From contig DVHF01000067.1 of assembly GCA_018712265.1 (NCBI GenBank), positions 1 through 32,221 of the forward strand: 32,221 nt of DNA. Reading direction: 5' to 3'. The DNA is from Candidatus Gallacutalibacter pullicola (lineage in GTDB: Bacteria; Bacillota; Clostridia; Oscillospirales; Acutalibacteraceae). The notes beneath the pieces are model-generated. The model did no database searches. It had not been told where the DNA came from and saw nothing but the letters and a program-made list of their open reading frames with translations. Position 1 is the first letter of the stretch; each line of letters begins with the position of its first letter. This document shows, piece after piece, positions 11,953 through 27,424 of this stretch. The translations under genes were made by a program, and so were the position numbers.

Positions 11953-12638
11953 GACTTCCCCTCCTTTTCGTGAAGAATCTCGTCGTATGCTTCCCGGCTC
12001 ACCGCTGTAAAGCGCAGTCGATCCCCGGGGCGCAAAAGCGCGCCGCGCTCCTCGTCATAAAGGCGCAGCGGCGTGCGGCCGATGATTTGCCAGCCGCCGG
12101 GAGAGTCCTCAGGATAGATCCCGGTCTGGCCGCCCGCGATCCCCACGCTGCCGCCCACGATGCAGCCGCGCGGCGTTTTGCGGCGCGGCGCTGCGATCCG
12201 GGGATCCATGCCGCCCAGATAGGGGAACCCCGGACGGAAACCCAGCATATAGACACGGTATGCGGCTTCTGTGTGCAGGCGCATCACCTCGTTCTCGGAG
12301 AGCCCGGCATGGCTGGCGACAAAGCCGAGATCCGGGCCGAACTCCCCGCCGTAGCACACAGGGATCTCCACAGTCCGCACGGATTCGGCGGAGCTTTGGC
12401 TGAACGGCAGGGCGCGGATTTTGCCCTCGGCCTCCCAAAAGCCGAGGGCAAGCGGATCATATTCCACAAGAAGCGTGTGGTAGGAGGGGATACATCCCAC
12501 GATTCCGGGAATGTGCGCGGCGTCTATGGCGGCGCACATATCCAGGACGCGGCAGCTGATCTCCTCCGAGATTTCTTCGGGGAACACGATGGAGAGCGCC
12601 CGATCCCCCGCCGGGATAATATCCGGCTGGCGGTTCAT
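11940..12638 (-). CDS. pxpB: 5-oxoprolinase subunit PxpB (KipI/AHS1 family)
   Basis: A 232-residue allophanate-hydrolase-subunit-1 family protein, the usual partner of PxpC. Diagnostic segments are [20 protein letters not shown] (about 43-62), [28 protein letters not shown] (about 131-158), [28 protein letters not shown] and the closing [14 protein letters not shown]. The start at 12638 follows GGGAGGGACACGCC and overlaps the TGA of the pxpA remnant as ATGA, so the ancestral pxpA-pxpB-pxpC coupling is still visible. No fresh promoter is apparent immediately upstream except the extended -10 elements in the adjoining repeat array. Confidence 0.88.
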
Positions 12639-12943
12639 GGCGTGTCCCTCCCCTCAAAGGGGCGCAGGGCGATCCCGGCCTCAAGGACGGCGGCGCGCAG
12701 CCGTGCGGCTTTACGTACCGTACGCGCGTCCCCTCGGCGCGGCATATACCGTCCAGCGCACCGATCTGGTAGAGGATCATGTCCTCTGCTTCCTGCGGGG
12801 AAATCGACATATTTCGGCGACCAAAGCCCAGCCGATCCGGATAGCCCGGATGTGCTCCGATAACCACACCGTTCCCGGCGGCAAGATGCACGGCGCGGCG
12901 TATCACAGAGGGATCGCCTCCATGCCAGCCGCAGGCCCGGACC
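12635..12943 (-). pseudogene. pxpA: Eroded pxpA (5-oxoprolinase subunit A, LamB/YcsF family)
   Basis: Two pieces of PxpA remain of a protein normally about 250 residues long. The first runs from [10 protein letters not shown] through [21 protein letters not shown] and [16 protein letters not shown] to YVKPHG, corresponding roughly to residues 45-125 of the family. Right after KPHG the second piece starts in another frame: [18 protein letters not shown] followed by RDTP and TGA, which is the normal C-terminus. An internal deletion of very roughly 120 codons with a frame change is therefore inferred. The N-terminus, including the expected DLNCDLGES motif, is missing; the homology stops where the intergenic repeat begins at 12944. 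The open frame continuing from 13008 to 12457 is not a real protein. Confidence 0.85.
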
Positions 12944-13215
12944 CAGATCGCGCCCGCTCCCTCCGGTCGCCCAGCCAGGTGGTCGATTGGGCTATAATTC
13001 CCGCGCACCTGCGGTGAGCAGATCGCGCCCGCTCCCTCCGGTCGCCCGGCTGGGTGCGCGATTGGGCTATAATGCCCGCGTTGCAGTCTTCCTGCGGATA
13101 TTATACCACACCTGCGGTGGGCAGATCGCGAAAGCGTCGTACCTCCGCTTGGTCTGGCGGTATAATTAAGCTGATACGCCCGCGTTTATAGTACTCTGCC
13201 GATATTATACCACAT
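12944..13215. repeat. Tandem array of a roughly 100-bp intergenic repeat (three units)
   Basis: Units begin at CAGATCGCG near 12944, 13019 and 13122. The first two carry CCCGCTCCCTCCGGTCGCCC and GATTGGGCTATAAT; the third carries GCGTCGTACCTCCGC (13134-13148). Units two and three contain the core GATATTATACCACA, and units meet at CACCTGCGGTG. The first unit has lost most of its right half. Internal palindromes are GGGC-TATAAT-GCCC and CACC-TGC-GGTG. On the minus strand the core reads TGTGGTATAATAT, an extended -10. An inverted 15-mer, GCGACCGGAGGGAGC, recurs at 13266-13280. A related array is at 21859-22053. The 13009-13421 gap holds only this, an operator-like repeat and a promoter. Confidence 0.85.
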
Positions 13216-13296
13216 CCCCGACCAGCCCGCCACCGCGACAGAGTATTTTTTCTATCGGAAATTCAGCGACCGGAGGGAGCGATCCGCGGTTTACGT

Positions 13297-13329
13297 CCAG
13301 ACTTAGTCTGGTGCAGGCTTAGTCTGGTG
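13297..13329 (+). promoter_or_regulatory. Operator-like repeats upstream of the amidase operon promoter
   Basis: CCAGACTTAGTCTGG (13297-13311) is a perfect 6-bp inverted repeat. CTTAGTCTGGTG occurs at 13302-13313 and again at 13318-13329, a 16-nt direct repeat that ends exactly where the -35 hexamer begins. This placement fits a regulator bound upstream of or next to RNA polymerase. The regulator is unknown. Confidence 0.5.
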
Positions 13330-21279: not shown

Positions 21280-21741
21280 TTATAATTCCCAAATTTCCAC
21301 GGTGATGTCCGGGCCGGAAAATACATCACTGATGATGCCGAAAACAGTTTCCCAATCCCCGCCGCCATAGCCGCACCCGATTTTATAGGGGAGCGCCGCC
21401 GCGTGAATCCCCTTTTCCGCCGCCCATGCGCGGACAGATTCCAGGGAACTGCGGAGGGCATCGTATTCTGTTGACTGTTTTATCAGAGATGTTTTATATT
21501 GCCCGAAACAGTTTGCGATGTATCTGCCTTCACAGCCATCCGCGGGCAGGATCTGGGCAAAGCCCATCAATTCCCGGCCCCTGTGCGCCCTGCAAAGCGA
21601 CCTGTATTCCTCATATACACCCGGATACAAACGCTTTACCTGTTTGGCGATGCCGGCGCCCATGGAACCCATACAGTTCACCTGATGGCAGAGCACGGGA
21701 GCACTGCTCGAGAATAGATTGCCCTTTTTCTGTACCACCAT
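21280..21741 (-). CDS. Macro-domain protein (ADP-ribose binding or hydrolysis, TARG1/ALC1-like)
   Basis: A stand-alone macro domain of 153 residues. The ADP-ribose loop 1 region reads GNLFSSSAPVLCHQVNCMGSMGAGIAKQVKRLYPGVYEEY (about 7-46), with the QVNCMGSMGAGIA segment typical of the TARG1/ALC1-like branch that removes ADP-ribose or binds its derivatives. KIGCGYGGGDWETV near 120-133 forms the second phosphate loop. Start 21741 is preceded by GGAGACGGGAACT; the frame is open to 21801 without a better start. No DarT-like ADP-ribosyltransferase is next to it, so a DarTG toxin-antitoxin role is not supported here. It is transcribed away from the repeat array at 21859-22053. Confidence 0.88.
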   Translation of the reverse strand: MVVQKKGNLFSSSAPVLCHQVNCMGSMGAGIAKQVKRLYPGVYEEYRSLCRAHRGRELMGFAQILPADGCEGRYIANCFGQYKTSLIKQSTEYDALRSSLESVRAWAAEKGIHAAALPYKIGCGYGGGDWETVFGIISDVFSGPDITVEIWEL

Positions 21742-21858: not shown

Positions 21859-22053
21859 TACGTGCACGCTCCCTCCGGTCGCCCGGCTAGATGCTCGGTT
21901 GAGCTTAGACATCCGCATTTATAATACTGTGTAGACATTATACCACACCTGCGGTGAGCAGAACGCGCAGGCGTCGTACCTCCGCTTGGCCGGGCGGTTA
22001 ATTGGGCTGAAACGCCCGCGTTTATGGTGCTCTGCGGATATTATACCATTTCT
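21859..22053. repeat. Second array of the roughly 100-bp intergenic repeat (two units)
   Basis: Unit one carries GCTCCCTCCGGTCGCCCGGCT and ends ACATTATACCACACCTGCGGTGAG near 21958. Unit two starts CAGAACGCG, carries GCGTCGTACCTCCGC (21971-21985) and CGCCCGCGTTTATGGTG, and ends GGATATTATACCAT. These match the array at 12944-13215 in order and orientation. Both arrays lie directly upstream of a minus-strand gene and place GGTATAAT on that strand. The 21742-22158 gap contains this array and otherwise nothing I can identify. Confidence 0.85.
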
Positions 22054-22158
22054 CCGCTTTAATTGCAAGCACAAGAGCACGCGGGAGAAAAGTTTTGCCG
22101 GGGTTTTCATTTTCCGACGGAAAATTCTCCGGCCGCGTTCCGCACAGCACGGTATGCT

Positions 22159-27217: not shown

Positions 27218-27424
27218 AGTTTTCGCCAGCCTTTTTCAAAAGGGCAGGCTAAGCCTGCACGTAAAACGCGTCGCGCGTCGTACCTCCGCGGAAACGCTAA
27301 TAGGAGCGTGCACTCTGTCGCGATGGGAAGCAAAAGGTAAAGTTTTCGTCCACCTTTTACAAAAGGTGGTAGGGGGTGCAGGGGGGCAACGCCACCCTGC
27401 GGTGAAAGGAACGCGAAGCGTTCC
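27218..27424. repeat. Hairpin-rich intergenic repeats
   Basis: Two copies of the AAGTTTTCG-plus-CCTTTT/AAAAGG family lie here: one starting at about 27217, and CCACCTTTT-AC-AAAAGGTGG at 27350-27369. Between and after them are GCAGGCT/AAGCCTGC (27244-27258), GCGTCGTACCTCCGC (27275-27289, the 15-mer of the large repeat family) and GGAACGC/GCGTTCC (27408-27424). No gene is apparent. The 27218-27746 stretch is entirely such repeats and terminators. Confidence 0.75.

Follow-up and report, generated by a model that had tools for sequence, protein, structure and literature searches.

Mosaic repeat arrays that appear to rest on the −10 boxes of host promoters in Candidatus Gallacutalibacter pullicola

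Two repeat arrays and a solo end module in the window

The window considered here, the whole analysed stretch of 32,221 nucleotides, is contig 17 of a 2.74-Mb assembly and contains two arrays of ~103-bp units together with one solo end module (Table 1). Array 1 is made up of one partial A, one full A and one full B unit, and array 2 of an A unit with a B unit behind it, the period of the A and B units being 103-104 bp. A first-pass annotation had placed such units at 12944-13215 and 21859-22053, and both positions hold. Array 1 nevertheless runs on rightward to ~13315 through a terminal module, recovered at 13237-13309 by genome search, and the 15-mer at 27275-27289, taken at first for a stray copy, is indeed present but belongs to the solo terminal module, which is flanked by convergent genes. 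Within the window three copies of this 15-mer (GCGTCGTACCTCCGC) are found against 0.13 expected, and three of GATATTATACCACACCTGC against 0.01 expected.

Table 1. Coordinates of the repeat modules and associated features in the window.
Feature	Coordinates	Strand	Remarks
pxpA (LamB/YcsF) remnant, truncated at both ends	12640..12940, within 12457-12945	-	PF03746, E=4e-35
Partial A unit, gene-proximal end of array 1	12944..13018	-	Abuts the 5'-truncated pxpA remnant
Full A unit, array 1	13019..13108	-	Minus-strand core GCGACCGGAGGGAGC; -10 TGGTATAATATCCGCAGG at 13091-13108
Full B unit, array 1	13109..13212	-	Minus-strand core GCGGAGGTACGACGC; -10 TGGTATAATATCGGCAGA at 13195-13212
Terminal module, array 1	13213..13315	+	E (CCACCGCGACAGAGTATTTTTTC), inverted A core GCGACCGGAGGGAGC, CCAGACTTAGTCTGG hairpin (CTTAG)
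Macro-domain gene, downstream of array 2	21280..21741	-	PF01661, E=1.8e-13
A unit, array 2	21859..21945	-	-10 reads GACATTATACCA on the + strand, 21934-21945
B unit, array 2	21946..22048	-	First -10 TGGTATAATATCCGCAGA at 22031-22048
Probable native promoter under array 2	22040..22068	-	TTGCAA (22068-22063), 17-bp spacer, TATAAT (22045-22040)
Solo terminal module	about 27244..27323	-	Hairpin CAGGCTAAGCCTG, inverted B, E piece (GACAGAGT)

All copies of the −10 listed for the units lie on the minus strand, which is also the direction of the downstream genes. Read in that direction, a unit starts with TGGTATAATATCCGCAGA and ~60 variable bases that include ACGCGGGC, and continues through core A (GCGACCGGAGGGAGC) or core B (GCGGAGGTACGACGC), GCGCGATCTGC and the hairpin CACCGCAGGTG to the next TGGTATAAT.

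The gene-proximal edge of array 1 coincides with the 5' truncation of pxpA, with a possible overlap of CCTGCGGC. The remnant, lacking its 5' and 3' parts, covers positions 32-110 of the 239 in the PF03746 profile, and the fact that it begins at position 32 exactly at the array edge confirms the coincidence of unit boundary and truncation already proposed. Next to it lies a gene whose pxpB-type domain (PF02682) is complete. Another repeat module, GGACCGCCGCCGGGCCGAAGGCCCGGACCCA / CAGCGCACCGGCGCGCTGGACCG, is seen at array edges in the upstream flanks of four other contigs (C116, C102, C41 and C28) and at 12940-12960 in the window, and the pxpA junction may carry a truncated form of it.

The two arrays differ at their upstream ends. 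Array 1 contains E and no native promoter is visible at its first −10. Array 2 lacks E, and the elements TTGCAA and TATAAT, separated by 17 bp at its edge and directed at the macro-domain gene downstream, fit the model developed below.

Copy number, architecture and orientation across the genome

Statistics were based on 600 kb of stretches and on whole-genome pattern counts. The junction −10 motif occurs 168 times in the 2.74-Mb genome, compared with twice for a reversed-pattern control, so that the family, rightly recognised from its units in the window, is not confined to it. An end-module query gave 85 genome matches, and a 215-base query 89 BLAST pieces in the 40 scored regions. In a 216-kb sample, composed of 20 contigs picked regardless of matches, 17 elements were counted, including 7 arrays with −10 units, from which a genome total of roughly 215 elements and 90 arrays may be extrapolated.

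Arrays combine A, B, H, K and E modules as mosaics, 1 to 4 A/B units lying between H/K and E-A'-K modules. The length of 50 full units was 103-104 bp, with few exceptions. The E module lies upstream of the first −10 in 41 of the 54 arrays with −10 units in the source genome. Together with an inverted core and the CTTAG hairpin it constitutes a second module, which is present upstream of most arrays here or stands solo near gene ends. A matching of flavours between array (A/B) and end module (A'/B') was considered and rejected, since B-only arrays carry A'. The solo end modules without a −10 (n=24) are distributed over convergent (9), tandem (13) and divergent (2) spaces. Further solo terminal modules (E, inverted core and CTTAG hairpin), sometimes in tandem and all without a −10, are found at C25:21868-22105, C88:24372-24700 and C65:4453-4691; these modules favour 3' ends and convergent spaces, which the arrays do not.

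The orientation of the arrays relative to genes, the latter called in the 600 kb with a simple home-made hexamer-based ORF caller, is strongly biased. Among 52 arrays that contain −10 units and have a gene downstream, the TGGTATAAT is aimed at that gene in 47 and opposed in 5 (binomial p=1.3e-9), and in spaces between tandem genes, where either direction would be possible, co-directed arrays outnumber opposed ones by 23 to 2. These figures bear out the gene-directed orientation claimed on first inspection, and a placement random with respect to gene direction is not what is observed. Gene starts lie ~60 bp (median) from the array.

The first −10 of an array and the promoter of the host

In the E-less arrays of the source genome (G000), in a sister species (G001) and in another genus (G214), similarity between loci sets in with T(G/A)TGGTATAAT, and what precedes it is different at each locus. 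Eleven loci of another genus have the same TGGTATAAT edge and unrelated upstream flanks. The gene-distal edge of E-less arrays is a promoter −10 box (TGNTATAAT, usually TGGTATAAT) with the old −35 region kept upstream. The unit body comes after this edge −10, tandem units are joined by another TGGTATAAT, and the gene-proximal edge ranges from ~6 nt past the native −10 to a position beside the ribosome-binding site.

If the first −10 is that of the host promoter, then a −35 element is expected 16-18 bp upstream of it, and such a signal was found. A −35-like TTG occurs at this distance in 13 of 37 array starts without E, against 2.4 expected (P<=5e-5), and the match to TTGACA before the first −10 peaks at a spacing of 17. 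Internal −10 copies are preceded by CACCGCAGGTG or the K hairpin, and lack a −35-like sequence. For most arrays in the source genome the native −10 is unseen because E lies upstream of the first −10.

Empty sites were sought by comparing the downstream genes of arrays, or searching for them, in genomes of the same genus, with test flanks cut by hand. In each of 10 occupied/empty pairs the native promoter aligns with the 40 nt that precede the first −10, which was left out of the comparison; the alignment has P<=0.008 in nine pairs and P=0.04 in that of FTHFS. Likewise, the native −10 aligns with the first −10 of the array in all 10 pairs examined, for example at galK, a corA-like gene and nrdR. 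The clearest pairs are those of galK (C112), the corA-like gene (C157) and C139. At the corA-like gene, where the empty site reads TTGAAA-16-TGCTATAAT|AACAAGGCAGGATTTATT, homology restarts 6 nt past the native −10, compared with 34 nt at C139, 72 nt at C2 and 136 nt at nfeD. The distal edge therefore keeps to the −10, and the proximal one varies. The nrdR promoter carries independent arrays in two genera (G000 and G214). An exception is glgB (C138), where a decayed native −10 is found at the far side of the array.

We consider it probable, at about 0.7, that a mobile family of non-coding mosaic repeats comes to rest on host sigma-A promoters and that the arrays are its copies. The old promoter would then continue to drive its gene and the array would become the new, repetitive 5' leader of that gene, to which the repeated −10 boxes might add possible start points. 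Orientation would be locked to the gene because the edge is tied to a directional −10 box, and the new −10 at the end of each unit may permit the addition of the next. The reason for this seat would lie either in targeted insertion, or recombination through the −10, or else in selection. It is conceivable, but a distinctly tentative proposal, that the insertion machinery recognises the sigma-A −10 box of the host, perhaps when it is single-stranded in the bubble of an open promoter, inserts just downstream of it in the same direction and regenerates the −10.

The first-pass annotation had suggested a portable promoter, according to which the element brings its own extended −10 and inserts irrespective of promoters, selection then retaining the copies that drive a gene. 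The presence of TGGTATAAT at every unit junction and the orientation bias agree with this, as does the equal bias of E-containing arrays (35 co-directed and 4 opposed), which lack a visible native −10. The −10s of arrays carry TGG, furthermore, while unoccupied promoters in the genome mostly read TG(C/A/T)TATAAT, so that the element may overwrite the native −10 with a TGG −10 of its own, or TGG promoters may be preferred targets. Against these points, the empty orthologous sites already possess a promoter of their own whose −10 aligns with the first −10 of the array, and the upstream flanks retain the −35-like signal at the right spacing. The part of the suggestion that stands is that arrays are aimed at genes; at the position of the first −10 of the E-less arrays the empty sites have a −10 already, and we regard a portable promoter as unlikely.

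Less likely still is a structured 5'-leader RNA, with the unit retained since its transcript, through stem-loops with GGAGG-containing cores, regulates the gene. The A and B cores are common to several genera, the hairpins CACC-GCA-GGTG and CAAGGC-TTA-GCCTTG keep their pairing although letters change, and G-U is better tolerated than A-C in the GGGC...GCCC helix, all of which would be expected of such an RNA. Folding of the whole unit, however, is barely better than that of shuffled sequences (mean z -0.8, and -0.6 for the complement, so not clearly strand-specific), and a strong RNA fold was rejected on this ground. No Rfam family scores above its gathering threshold, the best match below it reaching 20 bits (E=0.14); no shared theme is obvious among the downstream genes, and sister species differ in which arrays they possess.

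Mobility, relatives and known repeat systems

An array is present in at least one of two sister species at 11 orthologous loci, 10 of which are occupied in one species only, and the family therefore moves, or arises and is lost, quickly. Presence and absence at orthologous sites, the general sign of mobility looked for in a MITE, is accordingly observed. Terminal inverted repeats are unsupported, the ends giving a local score of 14.0 against 11.8 +/- 2.6 when shuffled in the source genome (G000), with similar results in two other genomes. A second −10 copy follows the last unit at L157, L164 and several loci of G214, and is absent at C157 and several others; with the copy present in some cases and missing in others, target duplication is unproven. 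The least probable explanation that we weighed, a classical MITE that ends in inverted repeats and duplicates a 9-bp target, TGGTATAAT, can point to the single units of the sister species bordered by TGGTATAAT on both sides (L157 and L164), but end-to-end inverted similarity is no higher than for shuffled ends, and the 3' copy is missing in many places, among them the best-resolved site, that of the corA-like gene.

No linked transposase or other mobilising enzyme was found. The single Y1_Tnp match (C40:44823-45098, L083) looks like an IS200-type tnpA cut by a contig end, and a RAYT/REP system was rejected, this lone Y1 transposase reading as an ordinary IS200 tnpA with no units around it. Passive IS200/IS605-type elements insert 3' of a short fixed target with no duplication, have subterminal hairpins and depend on TnpA in trans; the corA-like site and hairpin H agree with this, and the ends show no visible match to the tnpA locus. 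Also rejected was a larger autonomous element in which unit ends enclose a gene, as only chance-like end pairings were found around other genes. Other genera of the family contain related units, with named examples in Oscillospiraceae MAGs and Candidatus Caccousia; the pattern is absent from viral contigs, and a viral origin was discarded.

Repeats of unrelated sequence in other genera (G178, L265-L269; G170, L235) have TGGTATAATGTGCGCAGA or TGGTATAATGTCCGCAAA at their start too, which would suit a −10 edge common to several families. In E14__bin126 (L056 and L062) a different repeat, composed of long tandem modules, has the same border motif, ATTATACCACAT, and AAGCC/GGCTT hairpins.

Small interspersed repeats are usually thought to gather where they do least harm, as between convergent genes. 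The arrays described here present the opposite pattern. Many genes carry them, in a fixed direction, on the regulatory base pairs that are most sensitive, and seem not to be inactivated by them. Were the −10 box really the target, this would be a new safe-site strategy, comparable in its logic to that of phages which rebuild the tRNA end that they enter: by inserting at a −10 box the element would enter regulatory DNA without killing the gene and could stack in tandem. Dozens of genes of one bacterium would then have had their 5' leaders altered by a single sequence family, and a link would be proposed between promoter opening and repeat insertion.

In their architecture the arrays recall the BOX elements (boxA-boxBn-boxC) found in Streptococcus pneumoniae, repeats that are likewise small, non-coding, mosaic and interspersed (PMC3049150), in that end modules surround a variable number of tandem middle modules; the likeness is one of architecture only. 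BOX elements are over-represented between convergent genes (PMC3049150), whereas the present arrays lie upstream of genes, in one direction and on the −10, and we found no report of BOX elements on −10 boxes. Correia repeat enclosed elements (CREE) of Neisseria, short repeats that are mobile and frequently lie 5' of genes, are able to provide promoter sequence (PMC2649163) and resemble the arrays in their consequence for genes. They possess inverted repeats and use TA as target site (PMC2649163), while here inverted ends are unsupported and the array edge falls on a promoter −10 that already existed (TGNTATAAT) rather than on a TA site with inverted ends. BIME/REP mosaics share the intergenic location, the arrays of short modules and the small hairpins (PMC2817692), but the units here are arranged head-to-tail, not alternating, and no REP-associated (Y1) transposase is linked to them. 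BrickBuilt of Porphyromonas gingivalis, a mobile non-coding element, contains a tandem repeat and is reported to have a sigma-70-like promoter (PMC4596501, PMC10969869); it is defined as a MITE, and we found no mention of a seat on host −10 boxes in its description.

The open-licence PMC literature yielded no account of such repeats in Oscillospiraceae, nor of repeats landing on −10 boxes. We do not assign the family to MITEs, CREE or REP/RAYT because the features that define these failed to appear or were not clearly seen. It is best read as a small interspersed repeat of the BOX/Correia kind whose seat, the sigma-A −10 box, is unusual, and it is this seat that would set it apart from other small interspersed repeats.
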